From positions 496,001 through 560,000 of the forward strand of contig NZ_CP046452.1 of assembly GCF_009734385.1 (NCBI RefSeq): DNA of 64,000 bases, read 5' to 3'. Under the pieces are notes generated by a model. That model searched no databases. It worked only from the letters and a program-made list of their open reading frames with translations, and had not been told where the DNA came from. The position numbers and the translations under genes were made by a program. Positions 30,218 through 45,556 of the stretch are shown here, in pieces. Source of the stretch: Corynebacterium kalinowskii. GTDB lineage: Bacteria > Actinomycetota > Actinomycetes > Mycobacteriales > Mycobacteriaceae. The number at the start of each line of letters is the position of its first letter. Positions within the stretch are counted from its first letter, which is position 1.

Positions 30218-31543
30218 GTGCACCGCCCGGATCTTCTCAAAACCTGCCACCCGATCCGCAACAAAAGTCATCACTTCATTCGCGCTGACCGCGCCGACGA
30301 CAAATGCCTCCGGTCGTTCATCCCCCAAGGAATCAAAGCCACGCGCCACCGCGACGTCTGTCACGCCCGGCATCGTTGCAATCAGCTGCTCCAATTTCAC
30401 TGGCGACACCTGAAAACCGTGGTACTTGATCAGGTCTTTCAACCGGTCCACCACGACATAGGACCCATCGTGTTTCCGGCGGACGATATCGCCGGTGCGG
30501 ACCCAGCCGTCGATAAGCGTGCGCGCGGTCGCATCCGGATCGCCGAGGTACCCGGACATCACCTGCGGGCCGCTCACCCACATCTCGCCCTGCTCCGCCG
30601 GCTCTAGGGTGTCAGGGTTGCGCACGCTTATCGACGTCCCCGGCAGCGGATGCCCAATCGAATCCAGCGCGGTTCCCCGCTGCCACGCTAAGTGGGTGAC
30701 CGGGGCGGTTTCGGTGAGCCCGAACCCCTGCATCACTCTAGCTCCGAGCCGATTCTGGACGCGGGCAGCGACTCGAGGGTCGAGGGGAGCGGCTCCGGAA
30801 ACGATGGTGTGTAAGCTGCGGAAATCCTCCGGGGTGAGGTGAGGGGCATCGGCGAGGAGGCGTGCCAGTGGGGGAGCGATGAACGTGAGATTTACCTGGT
30901 GCTTTGGGTGAGCTTTGAGGAAACTGTCGCGCGCAAAATCCTGGGCAATCACGCGAGCCCGCTTGGCCAGCGGCACGTTAAGCAGGGCAGTGAGCCCGTA
31001 AATGTGGCTGAACGGCAGCACGGACAGGCAGGTCTCCCCGGATTGCAGCGGAAGTACCTGGGCAAACTGGGCGATATTGGCTGCTAGGGCCCGGTGGGAG
31101 AGCATCACTGCTTTCGGTGTACCCGTGGTACCGGAGGAAAACGGTAGGCAAGCCAACTGCTCAGGATCAATGTGTGGCGTTGGGGAATCAAGCTGTCCGC
31201 GGGGCTTGATCAGCTGCGGGGCCTCGGCGGCGGTGACGAGCAACCGCGCGTCCACGGCGCGCAGCAGCTGGGAGCGGTCCTGGTGCGACAGGTGCATAGG
31301 CAGGGGAGCAACGATAGCGCCAATTTTGGCGGTCGCGTGTAGGAGCGTTGCGAAGTCAATCCCATTCGGAAGTTGCACGCCCACCACGTGGCGCTCGCCG
31401 ATACCTTGTGCGGATAGATGGGCCGCTGCATCGTCGATCAGCTCGGCAAGCTCCGGGTAGGTGACGGAAGCATCGCCGGTGACCATGGCTGTGGTTTCGG
31501 GGAGATCGTGGCCGAACACGGCCTGATACAGGGATCCGCTCAC
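30152..31543 (-). CDS. AMP-binding acyl-CoA synthetase-like protein
   Basis: This 463-residue protein is an adenylate-forming enzyme of the 4-coumarate/fatty acyl-CoA ligase type. It has LPFSSGTTGTPKAVMLSH (ATP loop), QGFGLTETAP, GWVRTGDIV, DRLKDLIKYHGFQVSP (hinge) and the catalytic lysine in PRSAAGKILRRE. The acid substrate cannot be assigned. It starts at GTG 31543, overlapping the dinG stop by 4 bases, so the pair is co-transcribed. It is somewhat shorter than typical 500-550-residue members, mainly at the N-terminus. Confidence 0.85.
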   Translation of the reverse strand: MSGSLYQAVFGHDLPETTAMVTGDASVTYPELAELIDDAAAHLSAQGIGERHVVGVQLPNGIDFATLLHATAKIGAIVAPLPMHLSHQDRSQLLRAVDARLLVTAAEAPQLIKPRGQLDSPTPHIDPEQLACLPFSSGTTGTPKAVMLSHRALAANIAQFAQVLPLQSGETCLSVLPFSHIYGLTALLNVPLAKRARVIAQDFARDSFLKAHPKHQVNLTFIAPPLARLLADAPHLTPEDFRSLHTIVSGAAPLDPRVAARVQNRLGARVMQGFGLTETAPVTHLAWQRGTALDSIGHPLPGTSISVRNPDTLEPAEQGEMWVSGPQVMSGYLGDPDATARTLIDGWVRTGDIVRRKHDGSYVVVDRLKDLIKYHGFQVSPVKLEQLIATMPGVTDVAVARGFDSLGDERPEAFVVGAVSANEVMTFVADRVAGFEKIRAVHLVDRIPRSAAGKILRRELTRT

Positions 31544-33504
31544 TGAGCGACCAGCCTCTTGAGGGCCGCCTTCGCAGTGTCCGAGTTGGTTGTCTCCCAG
31601 AAAGCCGGCATGGACTTCCGCAGGAATGAGCCATAGCGTTTGGTTACCAAGCGGTTGTCCAGGACCGCCACCACGCCGCGATCGGTGACATGACGCAGCA
31701 AACGTCCGGCCCCCTGCGCCATGAGCAGCGCTGCGTGGGTGGCAGCCACTTCCATAAAACCGTTGCGTCCCTCGGCATCGGCCGCCTCTTTCCGGGCCTG
31801 CAGCAGCGGGTCGTCAGGACGCGGGAAAGGAACGCGGTCGATGATGACCAGCGAGCAAGAGCGGCCGGGAACATCGACGCCCTGCCACAGGGTGAGGGTG
31901 CCGAACAAACACGAATTCTCGTCTGCAGCGAACCTCTCCACCAGCGCGCCGGTGGAATCCTCGCCCTGGCACAGCACATCAAAGGGCAGCCGCTTGCGCA
32001 TCGCCTCAGTCACCTGCTCGGCTGCGCGCCGGGAAGAAAACAGCCCCAAGGTGCGACCGCCGGCAGCCATGATGAGATCGTAAATCTCATCCATCGTCTC
32101 CGGCGAGACCCCATCTCGGCCTGGATCCGGCAGATGCCGGGCCGTGTACAAAATTCCTGACTTTGCTGGATCAAAGGGGGTGCCCGCGTCCAAACTGTCC
32201 CACGTGCCTTTTGGCAAGCCCCAACTTGCCGCCATTGCTTCGAAGTTGCCACCGATGGTGAGAGTGGCCGAGGCCAGCACCACGGTGTTTTGCTCAAACA
32301 GTCGGGTATGTAACAGCCCCGCCACCGACAGCGGCGCCACCCTCAAAATGTTGCCCCGGCGATCCTCTTTCGACAGCCACACCACGTCGGTATGCTTCGC
32401 CGGATCCGACTGCGCGAAGACCTCCAAGATGCGGACGATGGCGTCGTGCAGGTCTGTCAGATGGTTCGCCAAGGATTGTCGCTCTGCGTAACGTTCCGGC
32501 TGATTGGCGGATTCGCCCTCTGGCGCTCGTGAAATAGTTTCCCGCAGGGACCACAACGCATCTTTGAGCGCGATCAAGGTGTGCTGCGCGGTTTCCGGCA
32601 TCGCCTTCCAGCGGCCTTCCGGGGCGCCGACGAAGACGTCGTCAAGCTCTTTGGCAAGTTCGGTGACCTTGTCCTCGCGTCCTTCGGCACCTAGCTTTCC
32701 GGCGCGCTTGGCCGTGAGGTTGAGGGAGGTCACGGAGATCTCGTTGCTGGCTACGGCCGTGATCCGGCCGTCGAGCTCATGAGCCTCATCGATGATTACC
32801 ACGTCGTGCTCGGGCAAGATGTTGATATCTGCCAGGGCGTCGATTGCGAGCAACGCGTGGTTGGTCACGATAATGTCCACGTCTTTCGTCGCCTTACGAG
32901 CCAGCTCAGCGAAGCACTCCTCGCCGTGGGGGCATCGCGCAGCCCCCAAACACTCGCGGGCAGAGACACTCAGTTGACGCCACGCCAAATCCGGTACGCC
33001 CGGCTCTAGATGATCGCGATCACCCGTCTCCGTCTCATTTGCCCAGTCATGCAGTCGAGCGACGTGCTTGCCCAGCCACGACACATCGGCCTCATCAAGG
33101 AGCGCCTCATCGCCATCCTGCTGGGACTGCGCCACCTTGTTCAGACACAAGTAGTTTTGGCGACCCTTCTGGATGGCGAAAGTAGGGCGCTTCTTCAGCA
33201 GCGGTTCCAAGGCATCGGCGAGCCGAGGGAGATCCCGTTCTACCAGCTGACGCTGCAATGCGATGGTTGCGGTCGAGACAATTATCGTCGTGCCGGTTTC
33301 CTGTGCATGCCTAATCGCAGGAACCAAATAGGCCAGCGACTTTCCGGTACCCGTGCCAGCCTGAACCGCCAGATGTCGCTCCGATTCCATCGCCTTTGTC
33401 ACGGCATTGGCCATGGCTTCCTGGCCGGGACGGCGCGCGCCGCCGAGAGCTGCGACAGCTGAAGCGAGCAACTCAGTAGTGGAGGGTACTTCTGACTCTG
33501 ACAT
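31540..33504 (-). CDS. dinG: DinG-family ATP-dependent DNA helicase
   Basis: This 654-residue XPD/DinG-type helicase has the Walker A segment VQAGTGTGKSLAYLVPA, a four-cysteine iron-sulfur pattern (YLCLNK, RECLG, ARCPHG, EECF), the DEAH box IIDEAHELDG, and the late helicase motifs LWQGVDVPG and QGAGRLLRH. Such proteins unwind 5'-3' and can resolve R-loops or G-quadruplexes. In M. tuberculosis dinG (Rv1329c) is directly next to pncB1; here 10.6 kb of other genes lie between. A minus-strand AMP-binding gene is overlapped downstream. Confidence 0.93.
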   Translation of the reverse strand: MSESEVPSTTELLASAVAALGGARRPGQEAMANAVTKAMESERHLAVQAGTGTGKSLAYLVPAIRHAQETGTTIIVSTATIALQRQLVERDLPRLADALEPLLKKRPTFAIQKGRQNYLCLNKVAQSQQDGDEALLDEADVSWLGKHVARLHDWANETETGDRDHLEPGVPDLAWRQLSVSARECLGAARCPHGEECFAELARKATKDVDIIVTNHALLAIDALADINILPEHDVVIIDEAHELDGRITAVASNEISVTSLNLTAKRAGKLGAEGREDKVTELAKELDDVFVGAPEGRWKAMPETAQHTLIALKDALWSLRETISRAPEGESANQPERYAERQSLANHLTDLHDAIVRILEVFAQSDPAKHTDVVWLSKEDRRGNILRVAPLSVAGLLHTRLFEQNTVVLASATLTIGGNFEAMAASWGLPKGTWDSLDAGTPFDPAKSGILYTARHLPDPGRDGVSPETMDEIYDLIMAAGGRTLGLFSSRRAAEQVTEAMRKRLPFDVLCQGEDSTGALVERFAADENSCLFGTLTLWQGVDVPGRSCSLVIIDRVPFPRPDDPLLQARKEAADAEGRNGFMEVAATHAALLMAQGAGRLLRHVTDRGVVAVLDNRLVTKRYGSFLRKSMPAFWETTNSDTAKAALKRLVAQ

Positions 33505-33611: not shown

Positions 33612-33650
33612 TATAACAAAGTCGCCCCCGCTGTATTCAGCGAGGGCGAC
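33612..33650 (-). terminator. Terminator after the Asp-rich repeat gene
   Basis: GTCGCCCCCGCTG and CAGCGAGGGCGAC pair (one mismatch) over a 4-base loop at 33621-33650; on the minus strand a TTTGTT tail follows. It ends transcription of the repeat-protein gene before dinG. Confidence 0.8.
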
Positions 33651-33671
33651 CGGTCTGTGAGGAGTTAGCGA

Positions 33672-35189
33672 TTATGCGAGGTCAGTCGCGTCATCGGCAG
33701 AGTTGTTCATGTCGATGTCGATGGTTGGGGCCAGGTCAGAGGTGACGTTCTCGTAGGTGTCGTAGACCAGGTCGTCGTTGTTGTCGAAGCCTCGGACGTC
33801 GGCGTAGCCGTCGTAGTCCTCGTCAACCAGGACGGTGTCGGTCAGGCCGTCGCCATCGGTGTCGGTGTGCTGCTCGTCGACGCGGCCGTCGTAGTTGGAG
33901 TCAACCCAGACAGTGTCGGTCAGGTTGTCGCCATCGGTGTCCAGTTCGACGATGTCAGCCTTGCCGTCAGCGTTGGTGTCCTGGACGAAGCCGTCGGTGT
34001 AGCCGTCGCCGTCGAGGTCAACCTCGACACCGTTTGGAGAAGTTGCAGCTGCAGGGGCGTTCTCGGTGGAAGGTGCAGCTGGAGCTGGGGCTGCAGGTGC
34101 CTCTGGTGCAGGGGCTGCAGCTGCGGCGCCGGCGGCGCCACCTGCGACAGCGTTGATGTCGTCGCCAAGCAGGTCGCCCATCGCTTCCTGAGATGCGGTC
34201 ATGGTGCCGCCGTTGGAGTAGTCAGCGATGCCGTCGGCGTTGGTGTCGGAGATGTGCGCGCCACCGGCGGAGCTGTCAGTGTGGACGTTGTCGATCTTGC
34301 CGTCGCCATCGCGGTCGTAGACGCGCATGTCATCGTCGCCGTCGCCATCGGTGTCGATGAAGACCACGTCGGTGTCGCCGTCCTTGTCCAGGTCCTGTGG
34401 GTCGCGGGAGCCACCAGCTGCAGCTGGAGCCTCAGGAGCGGACTCGGCGCGGGACTCGGAAGCAGAAGCCTCTGGAGCTGCTGCCGCTGCACCAGCTGCG
34501 CCCGCTGCGGCGCCGGCTGCGGAGCCAGCGGTGTCGTCAGCACCAGCGGTTGGTGCTGGGGTGGTTGGCTCTGCGTGGTTGGAAGGAATTCCCTTCTGGA
34601 AGGCCTGATCGCCGAGTGCCTGCTGGGTTGCAGAGACTTCGCCCTGGCCGTTGGTGCTGTCGACCTTTCCGTCTTCATCGTGGTCGTAGTGGGTAACGTC
34701 CATCTTGCCGTCGCCGTCAGTGTCGTAAGCTACTGCGTCGACCTTGCCGTCTTCGTTGAAGTCGCTGACCTTCATGTCGGAGACGCCGTCGGCGTCGGTG
34801 TCGATCTCGACCTTGTTGACGCGACCGTTGTCATCGATGTCCTGGACGTGAGTGTCGATCAGGCCGTCGTTGTTGGAGTCTACGGAGACGCGGTCGAAAG
34901 AGCCGTCCTTGTCGGAGTCAACCACTACGGTGTCGGTGATGGTGTCCTTGTCCAGGTCCAGGTCCATGCGATCTGCCTGGCCGTCTTCGTTAGCGTCGGT
35001 AACGGTGCCGTCTACCTTGCCGTCGCCGTCCAGGTCGATCTGGTAGGTGTCGGTCTTGCCATCGAGGTCCATGTCCTGTGCACCGATGATGTCAGCCTGA
35101 ATCTTGTTGCCAGCAGCGTCGACGGTCTCGAATACACCTGGAACGGTGTTGGTGGTGTTCTCGGAAGCGTTGTTCTTGTAGTCAGACAT
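33672..35189 (-). CDS. Asp-rich protein with DxDxDG calcium-binding-type repeats
   Basis: This 505-residue, very acidic protein has no signal peptide or membrane span. Repeats of about 13 residues with a D-x-D-x-D-G-x-x-D core (for example DLDGDGKVD, DTDGDGKMD, DTDGDGLTD) form three blocks, near residues 35-190, 262-330 and 395-490. Ala/Pro/Glu-rich linkers near 205-260 and 355-393 separate them. The repeats resemble EF-hand loops, dockerin or thrombospondin type-3 repeats, so Ca binding is likely. It starts at ATG 35189 after GAAAGGT, divergent from the dynamin operon by 224 bases. Cytosolic location with Ca repeats is odd. Function not recognised. Confidence 0.8.
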   Translation of the reverse strand: MSDYKNNASENTTNTVPGVFETVDAAGNKIQADIIGAQDMDLDGKTDTYQIDLDGDGKVDGTVTDANEDGQADRMDLDLDKDTITDTVVVDSDKDGSFDRVSVDSNNDGLIDTHVQDIDDNGRVNKVEIDTDADGVSDMKVSDFNEDGKVDAVAYDTDGDGKMDVTHYDHDEDGKVDSTNGQGEVSATQQALGDQAFQKGIPSNHAEPTTPAPTAGADDTAGSAAGAAAGAAGAAAAAPEASASESRAESAPEAPAAAGGSRDPQDLDKDGDTDVVFIDTDGDGDDDMRVYDRDGDGKIDNVHTDSSAGGAHISDTNADGIADYSNGGTMTASQEAMGDLLGDDINAVAGGAAGAAAAAPAPEAPAAPAPAAPSTENAPAAATSPNGVEVDLDGDGYTDGFVQDTNADGKADIVELDTDGDNLTDTVWVDSNYDGRVDEQHTDTDGDGLTDTVLVDEDYDGYADVRGFDNNDDLVYDTYENVTSDLAPTIDIDMNNSADDATDLA

Positions 35190-35274
35190 TGGGTTTACCT
35201 TTCAGTGAAGATGATCTTGGTCATCGTGTTGGGGATAGTATCGTTCAGGACCTCTCTGTTGTCCTGTCGGTTAT

Positions 35275-35300
35275 GGAATGCGCCGACCGCCGGATATGTT
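35275..35300 (+). promoter_or_regulatory. Candidate ECF-type promoter for the dynamin-Hsp70 operon
   Basis: GGAAT at 35275-35279 and GTT at 35298-35300 are 18 bases apart, like SigH/SigE-type promoters (GGAAT/GGAAC then GTT) of corynebacteria and mycobacteria. It would give a leader of about 105 bases. The match is short, so chance occurrence is possible. Confidence 0.35.
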
Positions 35301-35413
35301 CCTCGGGGGTAAAATTCAGCTAGGAATTACCGTGAAGTTTCCCGGATAACATGCGGTCGTGCGACATTCCGGACACAATGGGGAGACCGCCTAAACGGGG
35401 GTAGCTCCGCGAG

Positions 35414-37324
35414 GTGATACCACATTTGATACGTAGCGAAAGTGAACGATTAGTGACTGCACCGTTGAATAGACCAACCCAACGAGGGCCCCGCGAGTCC
35501 GTGGCTAGAGCAGCGGAAATTGCTCGCAAGTACGGGCGTACCGGAGAAACTGAGCATGCTTTAGCCCTTATGGATGCCAATTTTCGCACGGGAACCGTGG
35601 TGGTGGTCGGTGAGATTAAGCGTGGCAAGTCTTCACTGGTGAATGCCTTGGTCGGGCAGCGGGACTTGCTCCCCGTAGACGTGCTTATGTGTACCTCCGC
35701 GCCGATCCGAGTTACCGCTGACCCGCAATGGGATGAGGATCCGAATTGTGTGTTGGTACGCGGCGATCACAAGGATCCGATTGTGCTCACGGATCTGCCG
35801 AAGTGGGTGACTCATCAGGCGGTGCAGCAGATCGATAAGGCTGATTCTTCTGAGGAGGCGGCGCTTTTGCTGCCTAGCGCAGCGGAGATTCGGGTGGGCT
35901 TCGACGAACTCGGCCTCATCACCATCATCGATACCCCGGGTGTTGGTGGTTTGGATGAGCATGCAATTACAGCAGCACTAACCGAAGCGCGCCAAGCCGG
36001 TGTGCTGCTCATGGTCTGTGATGCCTCCACACCCATCACTGCTCCGGAGATGGAAATCTTGCGTCGAGCTCGCGAAACAGTGGGATCCGTCATCGTTGCC
36101 GTGACAAAGACGGACAAGAACATTCGTCGTTGGCGCTCGATCGTCGACGACAACCGCCGCCTTATCTCCCAGCACCTCGGGCTTGAGATCCCGGTCATCG
36201 GAGTCTCGAGTCTGCGCGCCCTGGATGCAATGGCGCAGGCGGATCCAGAGCGCCGCGCGCTTATCGACGCACGTTCCGGCATGGCCGACCTGCGTAAACA
36301 AATCCGGTGGGAGCTTTCTTCTTCTTCGGGCCTTGGCCTGCGCACCGCGGTGGACACGATGCGCATTTCTATGATGGACATTAAGAAGGGCATCGAGGAG
36401 GATATCGAGCTGCACTCTGCGTCTTCCGATGCCGTCGTAAAGCTCGAGGAAGAGCGCGGGCGACTGGAGCAGTTCCGTGATGACACGAGCGAATGGGAGC
36501 AACTGTTCCAGCGCGACATCACGCTGGCACGAAATGAGATTTCGGGGAGCCTTGACCGAAACCTCGAGCAGCTGCGTATCGACTGGACCGACCGTGTCAA
36601 CGCTGATGGCATGCGGGTGCTTCGTAGCAAGCCGCAGGTGTTTACCAGCCAGATCGAGATTGAGCTCAAGCGCATTCTTGAAGATGCGGTGCAGTCGATC
36701 CTGCAGCATGTCGAGCGCAGTTGCCGCGACTTGTTGCAGGACGATCTTTCCACGCGCGAGGTCATGGGCAATATTCTGGCTACCTTGATGCCAGCGGAAA
36801 TCATGAATAGGGAAGTGGATAAGAAGACCAAAGACCTGGTGGATCCGACCGTCGTGACCATGGGCGTGATGGGCGCTGGCGCCCTGGGCGCGCTTGGCAC
36901 TGGCGCGTTGGGTGCGGTGGGAATCGGTTCTGTGGCGCTCGCTGGCCCGCTCGCCCCAGTGGTTGGTGGCGTGTGGATTGGCGTCAACCTGGCGTATCGC
37001 GCAATGCGCAACGGCAAACAACACCTCATCATGTGGATTCGCGAGATGCAAAACACCACCCGGTCTTCCGCGATGCGCATGATTGACCAGATCATTACCA
37101 ACGCGCGCACGGAAATCATGCTTCGGCACCGCTCGAATCTGCGCACGAGACAGCGTGAGATTCAGAACAAGATCGAAGAGGCTCGCCGCATTGCCCAAGA
37201 ATCTGAGACCGAGCGTAAGCAGCGGGTAGCTCGCTTGCAGAAGAATCGCGAGATCGTTGGGGCCATGATTAGGGAGCTTGAGCTGCAGAAACAAGTGGTT
37301 TCTTCGCAGGTGAAGGGGAAGTAA
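35414..37324 (+). CDS. Dynamin-like GTPase (IniA/IniC-like), first of pair
   Basis: This 636-residue GTPase has the G1 loop GEIKRGKSSLVNAL near residue 66, G3 DTPGVGG near 173 and G4 TKTD near 232, followed by long helical regions with coiled-coil character (residues about 330-470). A glycine/alanine-rich hydrophobic stretch lies near 478-530 and a charged helical tail completes it. This is the layout of bacterial dynamin-like proteins such as mycobacterial IniA, which remodel membranes. The hydrophobic stretch may be the membrane-contact tip. GTG 35414 is used; GTG 35453 is possible. The next dynamin gene starts 3 bases after its stop. Confidence 0.82.
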   Translation: MIPHLIRSESERLVTAPLNRPTQRGPRESVARAAEIARKYGRTGETEHALALMDANFRTGTVVVVGEIKRGKSSLVNALVGQRDLLPVDVLMCTSAPIRVTADPQWDEDPNCVLVRGDHKDPIVLTDLPKWVTHQAVQQIDKADSSEEAALLLPSAAEIRVGFDELGLITIIDTPGVGGLDEHAITAALTEARQAGVLLMVCDASTPITAPEMEILRRARETVGSVIVAVTKTDKNIRRWRSIVDDNRRLISQHLGLEIPVIGVSSLRALDAMAQADPERRALIDARSGMADLRKQIRWELSSSSGLGLRTAVDTMRISMMDIKKGIEEDIELHSASSDAVVKLEEERGRLEQFRDDTSEWEQLFQRDITLARNEISGSLDRNLEQLRIDWTDRVNADGMRVLRSKPQVFTSQIEIELKRILEDAVQSILQHVERSCRDLLQDDLSTREVMGNILATLMPAEIMNREVDKKTKDLVDPTVVTMGVMGAGALGALGTGALGAVGIGSVALAGPLAPVVGGVWIGVNLAYRAMRNGKQHLIMWIREMQNTTRSSAMRMIDQIITNARTEIMLRHRSNLRTRQREIQNKIEEARRIAQESETERKQRVARLQKNREIVGAMIRELELQKQVVSSQVKGK

Positions 37325-37327
37325 AAC

Positions 37328-38791
37328 ATGAACATGAACCAGAACGTTGATACGTCACGTGATGCTTCCATCGCCGCGCTGACAACCCTGCTCACCCAAG
37401 CGGCGGATGCTCTCGCCCAAGGCGGCCCAGAGCTCGCGGAACACGCCTCTGAGCTGCGGAAAATGGTCTCGCGTCCGCCGCGCGTCGCAGTGGTCGGCCG
37501 CCTCAAGTCCGGAAAATCCACCCTCGTTAACGCCCTCACCCAGCACGTCATTGCGGCGACGGGCACCCTAGAGTGCACGATGGCCGTGAGCATGTACTTT
37601 GATGGTGCTCCAGCGCGCGCCGAGGTAATCGGCGTGGATGGCCAGGTAGAGCGAATCCCCCTCGGCAATGGTCCGCTCACTGAGCTGGGCATGCCGCTAG
37701 ACAACGTCGATCACATCGAGCAGTTCCTGCCCAATGCGCAGCTTCGTCGTCTTTCGCTCATCGACACACCTGGCACGGCCACCCTCACTGTGGAAAACGA
37801 GGCCCGCACCCGACGCGTGTTGGTTGATGGCCAAAAGGACACCAAGCGCGCCAGCTCGTGGGCTGATTCACTCGTCTTCCTCTCTGACTCTGCTCCGCGA
37901 GAAGACGAAAAGCTCTTCCTATCCCAGCTGGGTATGACACCGCTGACGTCGATAGGCCTGCTTTCGCGTGCCGACTCCTTCGGCGAGGGAGCATTCGGCC
38001 ACCGCGACCCGCTAGATTATGCCCGTGAGCACGCGCAATCGATCGCCGGCGAGTTGAAGAATTCGGTGTCTCAGGTGCTTCCGCTCTCGGGTTTCATGGC
38101 CGAGTCCGCGCTGGTGGGGCGGATTACTGGCGATGTCGCGCGCACCCTGGCTCACCTCGCACCGCTGGGGAGAGAGCAGCTTCTCGACGTCATCGAACTG
38201 CCCGACCCGTCCACGGTCGTCCCTGGTTTCACAGCTCAGATGCGAGACATGTTGCTCGATACGGTGGGTGAATACGGCATTATCGCGGGACGTGAGATCG
38301 CTGCGCGTGACGGTGCGGTGGGACTCATGCAATGGATGGTGGAGCGCTCCGGCATCAATCGACTAACTGAGATCCTCACCGGCGAGATCAGCTACTTTGC
38401 TGTGCTCCAGCGCGCAGTGCGGATGTTGGACGTACTCGACGAGTTGGCCGGTGGCAATGTCAATCGCGAGCATGTCCGCTGGGTGCAGTCGGTGACGCTA
38501 TCCCAGCCTGGCATGCACTTTGTCATGCTGTACCGCAGCTACCGCAATACCTATGCGTCCACTCCGGATTCCACTTTGTTGGGGCCGTTGCGTTCGGCGA
38601 TCGCTGCCCGTACCGCGGCGGAAGTGGTGGACTTGCCTGCGGCCGCTCCGGCTGATCAAGTACGTGCTGAGCTGCAGCGACGCCTCGGTGAGATGCAAAA
38701 TATGGCCATGGGATTGTTGTCTGCTGCTGAGGATGAAGCACGCGAACGGTTGGTTGTTGCCTACCAAGCGGCGCTGAAGGCTATGAGCTGA
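37328..38791 (+). CDS. Dynamin-like GTPase (IniA/IniC-like), second of pair
   Basis: This 487-residue GTPase has GRLKSGKSTLVNAL near residue 57 and DTPGTATL near 145. Its G4 is LSRADS rather than TKxD, and a shorter helical region follows. There is no long hydrophobic stretch, unlike its upstream partner. Tandem dynamin pairs of unequal size (IniA/IniC, and DynA-like pairs) commonly work as hetero-assemblies at the membrane, which I infer here. Its ATG lies 3 bases after the first dynamin gene; the Hsp70-like gene follows after 91 bases. Confidence 0.8.
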   Translation: MNMNQNVDTSRDASIAALTTLLTQAADALAQGGPELAEHASELRKMVSRPPRVAVVGRLKSGKSTLVNALTQHVIAATGTLECTMAVSMYFDGAPARAEVIGVDGQVERIPLGNGPLTELGMPLDNVDHIEQFLPNAQLRRLSLIDTPGTATLTVENEARTRRVLVDGQKDTKRASSWADSLVFLSDSAPREDEKLFLSQLGMTPLTSIGLLSRADSFGEGAFGHRDPLDYAREHAQSIAGELKNSVSQVLPLSGFMAESALVGRITGDVARTLAHLAPLGREQLLDVIELPDPSTVVPGFTAQMRDMLLDTVGEYGIIAGREIAARDGAVGLMQWMVERSGINRLTEILTGEISYFAVLQRAVRMLDVLDELAGGNVNREHVRWVQSVTLSQPGMHFVMLYRSYRNTYASTPDSTLLGPLRSAIAARTAAEVVDLPAAAPADQVRAELQRRLGEMQNMAMGLLSAAEDEARERLVVAYQAALKAMS

Positions 38792-38882
38792 TTATTCAAG
38801 CGTTCAGCCTGCCTGGGGTCTGCAAATGGTTTAATATCTGTTCGTTAGACCGTGCAGCAATGAATAAAAAGGAGAGGTGCGC

Positions 38883-40904
38883 ATGAGCCAGGAATGGCAT
38901 TTTGCTATTGACTTCGGCACCAGCAACACTTCAGCGGCGCACACCGCTCCGCTGAGCGGCGCTGTCGAGACCGTGGCGCTGACACACCGTTCGAATTTGA
39001 TGCCTTCCGCGGTTTATGTTGAGGGTGATAAGGTTTTGGCTGGTGACACCGCACTTCTTCGGGGACGTCGCGATGCCTCCAAGCTGCTGCTTTCCCCGAA
39101 ACGCTACATTGATCACGACCAAGTTCAGCTCGCTGGAAGTGATGCTGATACTCGCTTGCTCGTCGCTTCCGTCATCAAAGCCGCTCTCGAGCGGGCGCGC
39201 ACCCAGCACGCAGGCACTGACCCTGCGACGGTGACCCTGACACACCCCGAGGCGTGGTCCGTTCACTCCGTGGACCAACTCAAGCGCGCTGCAGAAAAGG
39301 CCGGAGTACGGCCGGAACAGATTCGAACGATTTCCGAACCACGCGCAGCGGCCATTCACTACGCTTCCCAGCAGCGTATCGAGGAAGGCCGCCACGTTGC
39401 GGTCTTCGACTTTGGTGGTGGCACCCTGGACATCGCCGTCTTGCAGTCCCAGGCTGACGGTAACTTCAAGGTGGTTTCGGCCAAGGGCGATAACTCGCTC
39501 GGTGGACGCACCGTGGATAACCTCATGTTCCGTTGGGTGATCGCCCAGCTTGAACACGATGACCCCGACTTTGCCGACTACGTGCGCACCGCTCCGGTGT
39601 CCGTCATGCACTCCCTCGAGGAAGCGATCCGCGAGTCTAAAGAGCTACTCTCCGACACTTCTTCCTCCACCATCTCAGTGTCCACGCCACAGGGGGAGCG
39701 CGACGTCCTCATCACCCGCGATGAGTTCAATGGCATCATCCAGGATGCGGTGTCCCGCGCGGTTGAGCTCACCCAGGCTGCGCTGCAGCAAGCAGGCGTC
39801 GATGAGGCCACTACACCGATCTACATGACCGGTGGATCCTCTCGCATCCCTTACGTACAAAATCGCCTTGGGGAAATCGGCACCGTGATGACGCTGGATG
39901 ACCCGAAAACCGTGGTCTCCCGCGGCGCTCTGCGCGCAACGCTCAGTGGTTTCACCGCGGGCAGCGCCGGAACACCGTCGATCGCGCCAGCATCGCCGTT
40001 CGGGGCAGCTGCTAGCGCTCCGCAAACAATGAACCAAGAAGCACCAGCTCCACAAGCCGAGGCAAACCCGTATGGCGCAAATCCATACGCTGCGGGCGCT
40101 CCTCAGGCGGATGTCAATCCGTACAACAATGCTCCGCAGACCACCGGCACCCGCGAGTTTGCGGCAGCGCCTATGGCTGGGCAGCCGATGGCGTCGACAA
40201 GCGCTGCGACCAAGAACGGCAGCGGCAAGACCTTGCTGTTTGCGGTGCTGGGTGTGGTTGTGGCTGGCGCGATTGCGGCTGCTGTGATCGTTAACTTCAT
40301 GGGCGGCAAGGACTCTGGAACCGGGGCGCAAACCGGTGGGGAAACGAGCACCGCGCCGTCTACTTCGTCCGCTCCGAAGACCACTGCGGCTGCTGCGCCG
40401 AAACCGGCGGTGAACGACCCTGGTCAAACCGATCCGACCAAGAGCGAGCGCCACATTTCCAACCGCGAGCCGTCGACGTTTGGAGTTCTACCAGCGGAAT
40501 TCACCGATAAGATCCGCAGTTGCCTGGACAAGCGTTCCGGACAATACGGCACCTCCTGGGTAGAGGGAACATCGGCGCAGCACTACGCCTGCCTGATGGA
40601 GTACTCCGCGCTGGGAGACAAGGAGAAGGAGCTGGCATACAACGGCTCCAAGTACATCTTCGTTGGTGCCGACGCGGAAACGGCGTACAACGACATGAAG
40701 AAGAACGCCAAGGTCAAGGCGGAGAAGATCCAGGATTCCAGCGCGGACAAGCCTGAGATCAACATTGGTCTGGAAGGCGCGCAGGATTCGTCCCCGGATT
40801 GGATGGCGTACTACCCGCACGACAAGATCCTGGTGACCTCTCACACCGGTACCGACTTCCGGGGTAAGGAAAACGAGTACCTGAAGTTCTTCGGCTTCAT
40901 GTAA
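38883..40904 (+). CDS. Membrane-anchored Hsp70-like protein, first of tandem pair
   Basis: This 673-residue protein has an Hsp70/actin-type ATPase domain at residues 1-360: IDFGTSNTSAAH (phosphate 1), VFDFGGGTLDIAVL (phosphate 2) and MTGGSSRIPYV (adenosine). The usual peptide-binding domain is missing. Instead come a Pro/Ala/Asn-rich linker, one hydrophobic span near 450-474 and about 200 outer residues with two cysteines (IRSCLDK and HYACLME). This suggests a cytosolic ATPase coupled to an extracytoplasmic sensor or binding domain. ATG 38883 lies after AAGGAGAGG. It is very similar to the gene at 41228. Confidence 0.85.
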   Translation: MSQEWHFAIDFGTSNTSAAHTAPLSGAVETVALTHRSNLMPSAVYVEGDKVLAGDTALLRGRRDASKLLLSPKRYIDHDQVQLAGSDADTRLLVASVIKAALERARTQHAGTDPATVTLTHPEAWSVHSVDQLKRAAEKAGVRPEQIRTISEPRAAAIHYASQQRIEEGRHVAVFDFGGGTLDIAVLQSQADGNFKVVSAKGDNSLGGRTVDNLMFRWVIAQLEHDDPDFADYVRTAPVSVMHSLEEAIRESKELLSDTSSSTISVSTPQGERDVLITRDEFNGIIQDAVSRAVELTQAALQQAGVDEATTPIYMTGGSSRIPYVQNRLGEIGTVMTLDDPKTVVSRGALRATLSGFTAGSAGTPSIAPASPFGAAASAPQTMNQEAPAPQAEANPYGANPYAAGAPQADVNPYNNAPQTTGTREFAAAPMAGQPMASTSAATKNGSGKTLLFAVLGVVVAGAIAAAVIVNFMGGKDSGTGAQTGGETSTAPSTSSAPKTTAAAAPKPAVNDPGQTDPTKSERHISNREPSTFGVLPAEFTDKIRSCLDKRSGQYGTSWVEGTSAQHYACLMEYSALGDKEKELAYNGSKYIFVGADAETAYNDMKKNAKVKAEKIQDSSADKPEINIGLEGAQDSSPDWMAYYPHDKILVTSHTGTDFRGKENEYLKFFGFM

Positions 40905-40912
40905 GGCAAGCG

Positions 40913-41173
40913 ATGACGTACAACCCGTACCAGGACGACACACAGTTTCCTGCCCCGCCACTAGCTCCGCAGTCGAAGAAGAGCGGCGGGTGCCTTGTCT
41001 TTCTGTTTGTGCTCGCTGGGTTGGCTGCCGCGGGTTATGGTGTGTGGACGTACGTCCTCCACGAGCAATGGCCGGGTGGAGAACCGGAAAAAATCATCAT
41101 TACCGAGTCTCCGGCGGCCACCCCCGAACCAGGGCAGGGCGGACAATCCTGGGGAACAATCCCCACCAAGTAG
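40913..41173 (+). CDS. Small single-span membrane protein
   Basis: This 86-residue protein begins MTYNPYQDDTQF, has one hydrophobic span at about residues 26-49, and ends with a Pro/Thr/Gly-rich outer tail. It lies 8 bases after one Hsp70-like gene and 54 bases before the other, so it is probably part of the same operon and may be an accessory of those proteins. I recognise no family. The Asn-Pro-Tyr head resembles the linkers of the flanking Hsp70-like proteins (NPYGANPYA). Confidence 0.7.
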   Translation: MTYNPYQDDTQFPAPPLAPQSKKSGGCLVFLFVLAGLAAAGYGVWTYVLHEQWPGGEPEKIIITESPAATPEPGQGGQSWGTIPTK

Positions 41174-41227
41174 TGCATCACACCGACGATAACTTTAGTT
41201 TTTAACCAAAAATCAAAGGATGAGACA

Positions 41228-43084
41228 ATGACCGACGCCTGGCACCTTGCAATCGACTTCGGCACCAGCAATACCTCAGCTGCTCACACTTCGCCGCTCT
41301 CGGGTGCCATCGAGACGCTCGCGCTCACACACCGTTCGAACCTGTTGCCATCTGCGGTCTACTGGGCTGGTGACGGCATTGCCTCGGGCGAAAATGCGCT
41401 GATGCAGGGTCGCAAAGACCCGGCTAACCTGATGCTCTCTCCGAAGCGCTACATCGACCATGACGTAGTTCAGCTGGGCGGTCGTGAGGTTCAGGAGCTT
41501 GACCTGGTCGCCGCCGTCCTCCGCAATGCCATTGAGCAGGCCAAGGCGCAGCATTCCGGTGTCGCTCCAGCCACCGTCACCCTGACGCACCCGGAGGCGT
41601 GGTCCGCGCACTCCCTGGGCCAGCTGCTGGCTGCTGGACGCCGGGCGGGGCTTGTCGACGCCCAAATCCGCACCATCTCCGAACCGCGCGCGGCCGCGAT
41701 GCACTACGCAGCCCAGCAGGAGATTCCGTCCGGCAAGCACGTTGCCGTGTTCGACTTTGGTGGCGGCACCCTGGATATTGCGGTGCTGCAGGCGCAGCAA
41801 GACGGCAACTTCCGGGTGGTGGCGGCTAAGGGCGATAACTCGTTGGGCGGCCGTACGGTAGATAACTTGATGTACCGCTGGGTGATCGCGCAGCTGGAAT
41901 TCGACGATCCCGACTTTGCCGATTACGTTAAGACGGCTCCGGTGTCGGTGATGCATGCGCTGGAGTCCAGCGTCCGTGAGGCTAAGGAAGTGCTGTCGGA
42001 CGCATCCTCGGCGACAATTACTGTGTCCACGCCGCAGGGCGAGCGAGACATCCTGTTGACCCGTGATGAGTTCAACAACATTATTGAGGAGTCGGTCACT
42101 CGCGGAGTGGAACTCACGCGCGCTGCACTGGAACAAGCTGGCGTGAATGGTTCCGACACCCCGCTGTACCTCACCGGTGGTTCTTCTCGCATTCCGCACG
42201 TGCAAAACCGCCTCGCGGAAGTCGGCATGGTCGAACGTCTGGATGATCCGAAGACCGTCGTTTCCCGAGGTGCGTTGCGCGCTACTATGCACGGCTTTAG
42301 CGCCGGTTCGGATGGTTCCACCACAGCAGCGCAGCCAGCAGTCAACCCAGCTGCCACCACGACTGAGCAGTTCAGCAAGCCACAGTCGGATCCTTATGCC
42401 AACCCGTATGCGAATCCGCCTCGCGAAGCGACCGCCTCACCAACTTCAGGTCAGCCGAGCGCCAAGAAGGCGAGCATGGTGAATTTCAACTCCGCCACGC
42501 CAAAGTCGGGGTCCGGATTCAAGAAGTGGCTGTACGCCGGTATCGCCGCTGTGGTTGTGCTCGGCGCAGGTGCAATGATCGTTCCGAACATGCTTGGTGG
42601 CCAGGAAACTTTCCAGGTCAGCCCGCAAATGGACGAAAAGCACCTGGCACGTGTGGATTCCAAGACGGCAGAGATCATGCCAGCGGCGTTCCTGGAAAAG
42701 ATCGACTACTGCAACAACCCAAGCAAGTCCTATTCTTCACTCGACTGGGCTAAGGATAAGGAATCCCGCTCCTGCCGCTTTGTCAAGGATTTGCCGGCAG
42801 CGCCAGCCAATACCGGCTATTACACCAACAACTTCGACGTGTTCCAGGGCGCCACTGCCAAGGACGTGTACGAAGCTATGAAGAACAGCGATAGCACCAA
42901 GCGCGAATTTCAGAAGGCCAAAGGCAATCGGCCAGAGGTAGTGGCTGTCGAACAGAACAAGTACACCGCTATCGCAGTGTGGTACGAAAAGGACGAGTAC
43001 CTCGTGTTCTTCGACGAGTATGCCCAGCCAACTGATAACGAAGTGGCCCAGTGGGGCCAGTACTTCGGCTTCCTGAAGAAGTAG
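41228..43084 (+). CDS. Membrane-anchored Hsp70-like protein, second of tandem pair
   Basis: This 618-residue protein has an ATPase domain nearly colinear with the gene at 38883 (IDFGTSNTSAAH, VFDFGGGTLDIAVL, LTGGSSRIPHV). An NPYANP-type linker, a span near 434-458 and an outer domain with paired cysteines (IDYCNN and SRSCRF) follow. The outer domains of the two proteins share length and cysteine layout but differ more than the ATPase domains, as after duplication followed by divergence in what they bind. A ribosome site AAAGGA lies 6 bases before the ATG. It ends 3 bases from the convergent sigma-factor gene. Confidence 0.85.
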   Translation: MTDAWHLAIDFGTSNTSAAHTSPLSGAIETLALTHRSNLLPSAVYWAGDGIASGENALMQGRKDPANLMLSPKRYIDHDVVQLGGREVQELDLVAAVLRNAIEQAKAQHSGVAPATVTLTHPEAWSAHSLGQLLAAGRRAGLVDAQIRTISEPRAAAMHYAAQQEIPSGKHVAVFDFGGGTLDIAVLQAQQDGNFRVVAAKGDNSLGGRTVDNLMYRWVIAQLEFDDPDFADYVKTAPVSVMHALESSVREAKEVLSDASSATITVSTPQGERDILLTRDEFNNIIEESVTRGVELTRAALEQAGVNGSDTPLYLTGGSSRIPHVQNRLAEVGMVERLDDPKTVVSRGALRATMHGFSAGSDGSTTAAQPAVNPAATTTEQFSKPQSDPYANPYANPPREATASPTSGQPSAKKASMVNFNSATPKSGSGFKKWLYAGIAAVVVLGAGAMIVPNMLGGQETFQVSPQMDEKHLARVDSKTAEIMPAAFLEKIDYCNNPSKSYSSLDWAKDKESRSCRFVKDLPAAPANTGYYTNNFDVFQGATAKDVYEAMKNSDSTKREFQKAKGNRPEVVAVEQNKYTAIAVWYEKDEYLVFFDEYAQPTDNEVAQWGQYFGFLKK

Positions 43085-43087
43085 CGC

Positions 43088-43663
43088 TTAGAAGTCCTGG
43101 CCCACGCCGGATTCGCGGAGCGCCTCGAGCAGTTTTGCTCGGGCGCGGTTGATCCGGCTTTTCACCGTCTGGATTGGGATGCCCTGCTGGTCAGCGATGT
43201 CCTGGTAGCTCAGTCCGCCGTATTCACGCAGGACCAAGGCTTCGCGGAACTCGTCGGGAAGCTGGCTCAGCGCTTCGCGCACCACGATCGACGCCGTGAC
43301 CTGCTCATCAACGGATGAGCCGGGGGCAACTTCGTCCATGCCTGCTTCGTCGTCGGGAAGTTCACGGCGCTTGCGCACAATTTGCAGAGCCGCATTGGAA
43401 GCGATCCGGTAGGCCCAGGTTGAGAAACGGGCCTTGCCGTCGAAGCGGTGGAGGTTTTGCCACGCCGCGGTGAGAGCGTTTTGCATGGCATCTTCGGCGT
43501 CGTGCTTGTTGCCGGTGATGGACAAGCAGACGGACCACATGCGCCCCGAGGCTTCCTTGACCAGCGCAGCAAACGCTCGCTCATCGCCTGCCTTGGCGCG
43601 AGCGAGCGTTTCTGCCTCATTATTGGTCGACTCGTCGAATCCGGTCAGATTGATCTCAGACAT
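43088..43663 (-). CDS. ECF-type RNA polymerase sigma factor
   Basis: This 191-residue sigma factor has region 2 (DAEDAMQNALTAAWQNLHRF, then FSTWAYRIASNAAL) and region 4 (LPDEFREALVLREYGGLSY, then QTVKSRINRARAKLL) without region 3, so it is an RpoE-like ECF factor. It follows the small acidic protein gene by 6 bases. No zinc-type anti-sigma gene is adjacent. I know of no ECF factor at this position in C. glutamicum. Its place at the end of the dynamin-Hsp70 cluster suggests it may control that cluster; this is inference. Confidence 0.87.
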   Translation of the reverse strand: MSEINLTGFDESTNNEAETLARAKAGDERAFAALVKEASGRMWSVCLSITGNKHDAEDAMQNALTAAWQNLHRFDGKARFSTWAYRIASNAALQIVRKRRELPDDEAGMDEVAPGSSVDEQVTASIVVREALSQLPDEFREALVLREYGGLSYQDIADQQGIPIQTVKSRINRARAKLLEALRESGVGQDF

Positions 43664-43669
43664 GTGCTG

Positions 43670-44041
43670 TTACACCCCCGGATCGATCTCTTCGATGCCG
43701 GCAGCATCATCCATGGCCGGATCGTCAGCTATGAATGGATCCTCGGTTGGGTCTTCGTGGAAGTCAGGTTCCATGCCTAGATCGGCATGGAGATCATCCA
43801 TTTCAGGTCCTTCCGCGAAGGGGTCAGCATCTTCGAAGCCGGAGTCTTCAGTTTCCGGGACGAGGTCGCCCTCTGGAGCTGGAGTTTCCGGATCCGTAGC
43901 GATGGCAAGCATGGCCTCCAGGTCAAAGTCTGAAGGTAGTGCATCCTCGCCGTAGAGCTGCTCAAGGGGAGGAAGCACGGCTGTGTCCTCGTAGTTAGCC
44001 TCGTCTGCGAACTCTGCAGCGAGATCAATATCGTTACTCAT
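43670..44041 (-). CDS. Small acidic protein upstream of the sigma factor
   Basis: This 123-residue protein is extremely rich in Asp and Glu with Pro and has no membrane span, no signal peptide and no cysteine. It begins MSNDIDLAAEFADE and ends AGIEEIDPGV. GGAGGTGA precedes the ATG, and the sigma-factor gene starts 6 bases after its stop. It is not a recognisable anti-sigma factor. Its acidic, probably disordered character may serve in binding a basic partner. Function unknown. Confidence 0.7.
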   Translation of the reverse strand: MSNDIDLAAEFADEANYEDTAVLPPLEQLYGEDALPSDFDLEAMLAIATDPETPAPEGDLVPETEDSGFEDADPFAEGPEMDDLHADLGMEPDFHEDPTEDPFIADDPAMDDAAGIEEIDPGV

Positions 44042-44188
44042 GTGTCACCTCCATTCCACCAGATGTAGAAGCCTTCAATTACTTCGGTGGAACCATCTGC
44101 CAACAGCTCACCTAACAATGAGATGCGCCATCGGGGGAATTTGTTCCCATGCCGAGGAAGAAGAAGTTCTTCAGTTCTCTGGTGGGGT

Positions 44189-45556
44189 TTAAGGGCGGGT
44201 TTGGAATCCGACGAATCGGGTGGACAGTGCAGGCTCGTCGCGAGATAGCGCCAGGCCTTCCCATGGCAACGACACTAGCTGAGCAGCGAGGTACTCGCGC
44301 GACTGATCGAGCGTCGGCAAATCGGGCACTACGTGTCCGTCGCGCATGAGTGGGACGGTCAGTGGGCGGACACCCAGAGAACCGATGGTCGGGGCGTCGG
44401 CGTCGAAAGGCGTGACAATCTCTTCCACGGCGGTGCCAGACTTGCGACAGGCGCGGAAGCCACGCTTGCCGCCACCTACCGACATCTTGCTGGAAGATCG
44501 CTTGGCCACTGGGTGCCCATCGACCTCGACCACCTTGTACACCATGGAAGCGGTCGGCGCGCCGGAGCCGGTGACCACCGAGGTGCCCACGCCGTAGATA
44601 TCAACTGGGTCGCCGCGCAGGCCAGCGATGGCGAATTCATCCAGGTCGGAGGAAACCACGATCTTGGTGTTGTGCGCGCCAAGATCGTCGAGCTGCTTGC
44701 GCACGCGGCGGGTCAGGATGCCCAGATCGCCGGAGTCAATGCGCACACCACCGAGTTCAGGGCCAGCCACCCGGATGGCAGTCTCCACGCCTTTTTCGAT
44801 ATCGAAGGTGTCGACGAGCAGGATTGTGCCCACGCCCTGCGAAGCAATCTGGTTGCGGAACGCAGCCTCTTCATTCGGCGTCCCATCGTCGTTGACGTGC
44901 ACCAAGGTCCAGGAGTGTGCAGCGGTGCCGGAGACCGGAATGCCATAACGGTGCCCAGCCTCCAAGTTCGAAGTGGCCTCGAAGCCGGCCAGGTAGGCGG
45001 CGCGAGAGGCCGTCACGGCAGCGTACTCGTGGGTGCGGCGGGAGCCCATTTCAATGATTGGACGGCCGTCGGCGGCCGTGACCATGCGGGCTGCGGCAGA
45101 TGCGATCGCGGAGTCTGCATTCATGATGGAGAGAATGACGGTCTCCAGGATGACGCATTCAGCGAAGGTGCCACGGACGGTCAGAATCGGGGAGTTAGGG
45201 AAGTACAGTTCGCCTTCGCGGTAGCCGTCGATATGCCCGCTGAACTTGAAGTTACGCAGGTAGTCGAGGGTTTCTTCGTTGAGAAAGTCGAGGCCTGCAA
45301 GCTGCTCCTCAGTGAAAACGTAGTCTTCAACGGCGTTGAGCACGCGCGCGGTGCCTGCGACGACGCCGTAGCGACGCTCGTTGGGCAACCGACGCGCAAA
45401 CACCTCGAAGGTGCACTGGCGGTGCGCCGTGCCATCCGCGAGCGCGGCTTGCAGCATGGTGAGCTCGTACTTGTCCGTCAAAAGGGACGTCGAGCGCGTC
45501 TTCGGCAATGAGGAAGAAGTGCCGGGAGTGTGGCGAGAAGGTGTTGGAGAGGTCAC
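44189..45556 (-). CDS. pncB: Nicotinate phosphoribosyltransferase PncB
   Basis: This 455-residue enzyme makes nicotinate mononucleotide from nicotinate and PRPP with ATP, in NAD salvage. It has LLTDKYELTMLQAAL at the start, EMGSRRTHEYAAV (region of the phosphorylated His), LVDTFDIEKGVETAI, and GGVRIDSGDLG of the phosphate-binding site. It corresponds to M. tuberculosis PncB1 and, as there, is divergent from clpS, with 115 bases between. The M. tuberculosis neighbour dinG is 10.6 kb away here because of the inserted cluster. Confidence 0.94.
   Translation of the reverse strand: MTSPTPSRHTPGTSSSLPKTRSTSLLTDKYELTMLQAALADGTAHRQCTFEVFARRLPNERRYGVVAGTARVLNAVEDYVFTEEQLAGLDFLNEETLDYLRNFKFSGHIDGYREGELYFPNSPILTVRGTFAECVILETVILSIMNADSAIASAAARMVTAADGRPIIEMGSRRTHEYAAVTASRAAYLAGFEATSNLEAGHRYGIPVSGTAAHSWTLVHVNDDGTPNEEAAFRNQIASQGVGTILLVDTFDIEKGVETAIRVAGPELGGVRIDSGDLGILTRRVRKQLDDLGAHNTKIVVSSDLDEFAIAGLRGDPVDIYGVGTSVVTGSGAPTASMVYKVVEVDGHPVAKRSSSKMSVGGGKRGFRACRKSGTAVEEIVTPFDADAPTIGSLGVRPLTVPLMRDGHVVPDLPTLDQSREYLAAQLVSLPWEGLALSRDEPALSTRFVGFQTRP

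Follow-up and report, generated by a model that had tools for sequence, protein, structure and literature searches.

The closest described relative of the locus studied here is the mycobacterial iniBAC operon, which responds to cell-wall drugs via IniR according to one study that also notes a dnaK-like gene in the M. smegmatis ini region (PMC5760070). IniA fissions membranes, an activity reported as involved in drug resistance, with IniC suggested as its partner (PMC6715688). According to a further source, most bacterial dynamin genes sit as pairs within operons (PMC6104087). We analyzed a window of 64,000 nucleotides from Corynebacterium kalinowskii (contig NZ_CP046452.1, positions 496,001 to 560,000 of the forward strand; coordinates below count from its first letter), in which a block of eight genes lies between dinG and pncB. 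These encode two dynamin-like GTPases (DynA and DynB), two Hsp70-like ATPases (HspA and HspB), a small membrane protein, an acidic DxDxDG-repeat protein, an extracytoplasmic function (ECF) sigma factor and a small acidic protein. Our results establish that, where it occurs, namely in a minority of corynebacteria, the block forms a real unit. We consider it reasonably probable that it is a corynebacterial relative of iniBAC, that is, a cytoplasmic-membrane and envelope-maintenance module under its own ECF factor.

Gene content and co-occurrence

An initial annotation of this DNA had named eight genes of these kinds within 33612-44041 with dinG and pncB flanking them, had proposed that the Hsp70-like ATPases are membrane-anchored and the dynamins linked to IniA and IniC, and had expected the genes to travel together. 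Open reading frames (ORFs), which place the eight genes at 33672-44041, and Pfam matches agree with the content and the flanks, and the remaining proposals found support as follows.

Among 151 genomes of the same genus, strong matches to DynA and to the membrane Hsp70 (E <= 1e-80, a threshold chosen after the first search's result) fell in exactly the same 21 genomes. A DxDxDG profile (E <= 1e-20) matched in 19/151, all among the 21; it missed G114 and G149, the latter with a weaker copy. The ECF profile (E <= 1e-40) matched in 27/151, namely the 21 plus G010, G013, G024, G034, G039 and G101, and weaker DynA matches (7.5e-12 to 1.5e-44) were found in G013, G034, G039 and G101. G039 carries ECF-DynA-DynB together with an Hsp70-like gene, and G034 and G101 carry ECF-DynA-DynB. 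In G013 and G024, weak dynamin-like matches and an Hsp70-like gene lie within ~5 kb of the ECF gene. Beside dinG-pncB in G010 (L245:8686-9460) we saw an intact promoter element, the acidic gene and a broken ECF gene, the rest not being seen; judged by its sequence, this locus is a decayed relic of the block. Independent occurrence of the genes, which would have spoken against a unit, was thus not what we found within the genus: DynA and Hsp70 share their genomes, DxDxDG occurs only there, and the ECF factor comes with dynamin-like genes or with the relic.

The genes for DynA (35414..37324, plus strand) and DynB (37328..38791, plus strand, beginning 3 bp past DynA) both matched Dynamin_N in Pfam (E 1.2e-15 and 6.9e-08), and the P-loop and G3/G4 residues were invariant in the dynamin alignments. 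The best PDB match of DynA was IniA (6j72, E 2.3e-14), a structure against which the IniA from one fetched locus (L090) scored 1159 bits. DynA has a hydrophobic stretch at about residues 491-525, likely a membrane paddle, and DynB lacks such a segment. A tree of 55 dynamins, built by a quick method and with long branches flagged, separated all 27 DynA/IniA rows from all 28 DynB/IniC rows (SH-aLRT 100). This supports DynA and DynB as homologues of mycobacterial IniA and IniC, and bears out the link drawn initially.

HspA (38877..40904, plus strand) and HspB (41228..43084, plus strand) are paralogues with 52% identity and identical architecture. Each matched the Pfam family HSP70 (E 2.4e-31 and 5.9e-33) up to about residue 334, followed by a proline/alanine-rich linker, a single transmembrane segment (about 448-475 in HspA) and another domain. 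This last domain, located outside the membrane, is confidently predicted and has two conserved cysteines. No substrate-binding domain was matched in either protein by Pfam or in the alignments. Across the relatives of types I and II (arrangements described below), both phosphate motifs were present in 21/21 and the adenosine pattern in 17/21. The best NCBIfam match of the two proteins was HscA, far below cut-off. A PsbP/Mog1-like fold is conceivable for the exported domain, a profile of which had no credible sequence match in the PDB, and kinship with the DUF7373 lipoproteins of type II loci was tried and rejected (profile comparison probability 3.6, no relation). Extra membrane-Hsp70 copies occur at L091-L094 (G089, G055 and G148), with no dynamin match within the fetched 20 kb.

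The DxDxDG-repeat protein (33672..35189, minus strand; 505 residues), whose relatives we aligned, contains 19 D-x-[DN]-x-[DN]-G motifs, mostly with a 13-residue period, and is 20% Asp. Judged by hydropathy only, it showed no signal peptide or transmembrane segment (top mean 0.41 in the first 60 residues, 1.07 over any 19), and 20/20 relatives had values <=1.04 in the first 60 residues. Neither this protein, nor the small one-transmembrane protein (40913..41173, plus strand; 86 residues), nor the small acidic protein (43670..44041, minus strand) had a Pfam match above the curated cut-off, and the acidic protein had no PDB match. The locus L028 holds a possible counterpart of the small membrane protein at the same position (153 residues, one transmembrane segment). 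The acidic protein, which leads the acid-ECF pair, has a conserved N-terminal motif, LPPLExLxG... Many DxDxDG proteins end alike at their C-termini (-TDLA, -TDFA, -GTELA) and several acidic proteins have DDPLADF-like ends; these common ends could be a degradation or docking tail.

Transcription units and the ECF-type element

The five plus-strand genes probably form one operon because they are tightly spaced, with gaps of 3, 85, 8 and 54 bp from dynA through dynB, hspA and the small membrane protein gene to hspB. Since the DxDxDG gene and the acid-ECF pair lie on the minus strand, three transcription units are likely, rather than a single operon. Of the terminator-like sites in the region, which were near chance in number (10 versus a shuffle mean of 8.0), the longest stem listed belongs to a strong 14-pair hairpin (33620..33651, minus strand) that lies 3' of the DxDxDG gene and ahead of dinG. 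A scan for sigma-70-like promoters was at chance level (2 versus 2.5 expected), an Rfam scan of the window returned two tRNAs and nothing else, and the GC content of the block showed no departure from its surroundings. Both flanking genes, dinG (31540-33504) and pncB (44189-45556), lie on the minus strand and were identified by ORFs and family matches.

The ECF factor (43088..43663, minus strand) has sigma-70 regions 2 and 4 (PF04542, 1.4e-17; PF08281, 4.9e-17). It shares 56-72% identity with its type I relatives but only 33% with the closest paralogue that its own genome encodes. The element GGAAC-N16-GCAT occurs at 35278..35302 (minus strand), ending 89 bp ahead of the DxDxDG start, and again ahead of the acid-ECF pair at 44123..44147 (minus strand). 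A possible weak version with an N17 spacer lies 50 bp ahead of hspB (41153..41178, plus strand), overlapping the end of the small membrane protein gene. GGAAC-N15..17-GCAT was found upstream of 14/17 DxDxDG genes, 12/15 acid-ECF pairs and 1/188 other genes, as counted on the same, partly near-identical loci in which the motif was discovered; the single match among the 188 is the N17 site ahead of hspB. The DxDxDG regions without a counted element are those of L038, L041 and the second copy in L029, and the acid regions are those of L038, L039 and L029; in both L029 cases the element lies inside an over-long gene call (L029:15035 and L029:4689, respectively). The position ahead of acid-ECF fits autoregulation, recognition by the ECF factor being putative. 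In a study of C. glutamicum, Sigma E/H-type promoters are given a GGAAC -35 box, a 16-base spacer and a CGTT -10 box (PMC10012870). The block element has the same -35 box and spacer but differs in its -10 box, GCAT.

Genome-wide, the element was not enriched (31 sites versus 32 reversed controls), and only a tandem group stood out. This array of about six short genes for two-transmembrane proteins (G000:C1:2303100-2308600; L180:7108-12532) has an ECF-type element before five of them, and is likely a distant regulon of the window's sigma factor; its proteins possibly carry a PH-like domain. Given that the protein family was found in 2/151 genomes (G000 and G089) and that we saw no element next to the copy in G089, this tandem part of the regulon is not conserved. 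A near-identical copy of the element is present in two genomes (G054:C1:255477, L195; G126:C18:11134). In G054 it lies ~108 bp ahead of a small lipoprotein gene, whose product may resemble DUF4333.

Arrangements, insertion site and related loci

The 20 neighbourhoods fetched comprised 15 of type I, which has the window's layout, and five of type II. With the window included, DxDxDG, DynA, DynB, Hsp70 and ECF genes were present in 16/16 type I loci. The acidic gene was present in 15/16, ten by similarity (the window's own among them) and five by position and motif, with none recognised in L037. Type II loci, where the stretch was long enough, have DynB-DynA facing DUF7373 lipoprotein(s)-Hsp70-DxDxDG-acid-ECF, and their dynamins are 31-39% identical to the window's. 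In one type II genome (G148; L045 and L095), genes from a type VII secretion locus, namely eccC, eccD, one for a mycosin-like protease and eccB (Pfam FtsK_SpoIIIE, EccD, Peptidase_S8 and EccB), are interspersed among the dynamin, lipoprotein and Hsp70 genes.

The initial annotation had described the block as inserted between dinG and pncB. This description suits five of the 16 type I loci (window, L028, L029, L036 and L040), but six (L030-L035) lie beside an intact dinG-pncB pair and five (L037, L038, L039, L041 and L042) lie elsewhere. We examined the best-scoring 30 dinG loci from 150 genomes with a match: pncB was adjacent in 26/30, the block lay between the two genes in 3/30 and two unrelated ORFs did so in 1/30 (G144). 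The window's block is therefore an insertion at this site, which is usually empty among those 30 loci. Pairwise identities of the parts were correlated in type I (DynA-DynB rho 0.88, 16 loci; DynB-Hsp 0.82; DynB-ECF 0.80), as were those of DynB and dinG (rho 0.74, 11 loci), a pattern that fits joint and mostly vertical inheritance accompanied by many losses.

Outside the genus, linkage was judged from fetched loci. An order-wide search with DynB gave a match in 155/298 genomes, and at least 10 genomes of a mycobacterium-like genus (g2) had none. From this genus we fetched 22 of 24 listed loci (18-20 kb each), and an Hsp70-like gene with a transmembrane segment behind the ATPase region was present at 22/22 of these ini loci. 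It abuts the iniC 3' end in nine (six on the same strand) and otherwise lies mostly ~4 kb from iniC, past iniA. Two copies have a second hydrophobic segment, and three loci have weakly similar ones only (61-67 bits). DnaK, with no transmembrane segment, was found whole near three ini loci and as a 62-residue piece near a fourth. An IniB-like N-terminus preceded IniA in all 10 of the 22 loci that were read for it.

Two other genera of the family carry ECF, dynamin and DxDxDG genes together (L080 and L082), and at L081 the ECF gene adjoins DynB. Twenty loci from other families of the order, chosen for spread, yielded an Hsp70-like gene in 10 (nine with a transmembrane segment) and a DxDxDG gene in three, and six further loci outside the family yielded an Hsp70-like gene in three (L086, L098 and L099). 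Some Hsp70s from these loci are merely tail-anchored. DxDxDG proteins also stand beside dynamin pairs at L219, L220 and L227 in other families, where the sequence fetched gave no ECF match.

Proposed function and comparison with known systems

Several observations weigh against reading the block as an iniBAC-like envelope module. The envelope role would be an extrapolation from iniBAC and from control by an ECF factor. The post hoc E-value threshold and the counting of the promoter motif on its own discovery set tell in the same direction, and the hypergeometric value for DynA/Hsp70 co-occurrence (3.8e-26) ignores common descent. Hsp70 is not an obligatory part: none was seen near the dynamins of G034 and G101, none is visible at L080 (a 6-kb contig) or L082, and 10/20 of the loci from other families have no such gene. 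The dynamin-like matches in G013 and G024 are weak (38-74 bits). The acidic protein is a candidate anti-sigma factor by its conserved position alone. The phosphate-2 pattern that we used is missing in 26/26 mycobacterial Hsp70 copies and in three type III copies, and the ini-locus proteins are perhaps pseudo-ATPases. Finally, the 150 bp next to DxDxDG or acid hold no element in type II loci (the closest lies 250 bp ahead of DxDxDG, in L046), and neither ECF nor DxDxDG was matched at the mycobacterial ini loci that we examined; regulation therefore differs.

The gene set, architectures and promoter element are established by sequence, and from these we infer how the module might work. Envelope or membrane damage would free the ECF factor, perhaps from the adjacent acidic protein as its anti-sigma factor, and the freed factor would raise the levels of itself, of the acidic repeat protein and of a small number of membrane or exported proteins. 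DynA, which carries the paddle, and DynB would form a hetero-oligomer on the inner leaflet that pinches or seals damaged membrane. Through the membrane Hsp70s, conditions on the outer side would act on an ATP-driven switch by which the dynamins are recruited or taken apart. Having no export signal, the DxDxDG protein would act in the cytosol, where its folding may depend on cations that have leaked in. A full membrane-repair machine can be drawn from these steps, in which anchored Hsp70s lacking a substrate domain sense the envelope by means of the exported domain and make the dynamin pair on the inner face assemble or come apart, like Hsc70 on coats, the cytosolic DxDxDG protein reports a breach, the ECF factor acts as a self-amplifying switch, and the same Hsp70, partly degenerate, is present at the mycobacterial ini locus. 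We offer this machine tentatively, as a rather unlikely whole.

Other functions could account for parts of these data. Presence in 21/151 genomes and at several sites is patchy, as expected of a mobile defence island whose dynamins and membrane ATPases limit phage lysis or entry, and PADLOC matches DynA to LeoA (E 1.2e-19) and LeoBC (9.5e-14). These matches, however, reflect partial dynamin similarity, and no other defence family was convincing among the eight proteins scanned. The block's own ECF factor, the correlation of DynB with dinG and the dinG-pncB relic suggest old residence with losses, and the mycobacterial counterparts respond to cell-wall drugs in print, all of which makes phage defence improbable. 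The G148 locus raises the prospect that the module remodels membrane round an export machine such as type VII secretion, or makes vesicles, in keeping with the DUF7373 lipoproteins added in type II and with the exported or membrane proteins that some candidate motif sites precede. Yet the four G148 secretion proteins were unmatched in 66/69 loci, and beyond the two overlapping G148 loci the one remaining match was a weak one to mycosin (28%, 66 bits), close to a solitary Hsp70 at L092; one locus is one case, and we regard a secretion or vesicle accessory as an improbable explanation too.

A role in septation would make the Hsp70s mainly cytoskeletal or division ATPases, kin to MreB or FtsA, with the dynamins serving them. 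MreB_Mbl is indeed the second Pfam match of both proteins, they have the form of a nucleotide-binding domain only, and Streptomyces DynA/DynB are said to act in division. Against this, HSP70 scores 109-114 bits and MreB_Mbl 30-32 bits, the 124/151 genomes without even the ECF gene must divide without the module, and the link to an ECF factor is more in keeping with an induced function than with a constitutive one; we think this reading quite improbable. That the eight genes are chance neighbours at a common permissive site, as their absence from most relatives might suggest, is scarcely credible. The 16 type I loci keep their content at different sites, the rearranged type II is made up of the same families, DxDxDG and acid-ECF have a promoter element in common, and the co-occurrence of DynA, Hsp70, DxDxDG and ECF already contradicts it. 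An iniBAC-like module for the membrane and envelope thus remains the reading that we favor.

The set had also been called undescribed as a unit. Our literature search, which covered few subscription journals, found no account of a dynamin-Hsp70-ECF set as a unit, but PMC5760070 already records that the ini locus in M. smegmatis holds a dnaK-like gene; the claim is therefore nearly right. Work on IniA and IniC has treated them as dynamins of the drug response, with unclear partners, and the membrane-anchored Hsp70-like neighbour is a concrete candidate for one. The corynebacterial block, with its own sigma factor and short promoter element, opens its regulon and trigger to simple reporters.

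Each component has better-known likenesses. Secreted calcium-repeat proteins share the DxDxDG repeats, but the block's protein lacks an export signal as judged by hydropathy. HspA and HspB have the ATPase domain of the chaperones DnaK and HscA, with its phosphate and adenosine motifs, but in place of a matched substrate-binding domain they carry a transmembrane anchor and an exported domain. Two unlike dynamins are adjacent in Campylobacter DLP1/2 and Streptomyces DynA/DynB as well; what sets the block's pair apart is its association with Hsp70s anchored in the membrane, with a DxDxDG protein and with an ECF factor. The mycobacterial iniBAC locus has adjacent IniA-type and IniC-type dynamins (by the tree), a gene for a low-complexity protein ahead of them and a transmembrane-bearing Hsp70-like gene close by at all 22 loci, as in the block, and it is an envelope-stress response in print, a likeness that would extend to the block by analogy. 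It differs in its regulator, as the block has an ECF factor with an acidic partner and IniR is absent among the eight genes, dinG and pncB. In place of IniB, the block has a divergently transcribed DxDxDG protein, and its two Hsp70s, which stand in tandem, have retained the phosphate motifs and bear an exported domain with two cysteines. Given that IniB and IniR are missing, we avoid the name iniBAC operon for the block and regard it as a variant of this type of locus.

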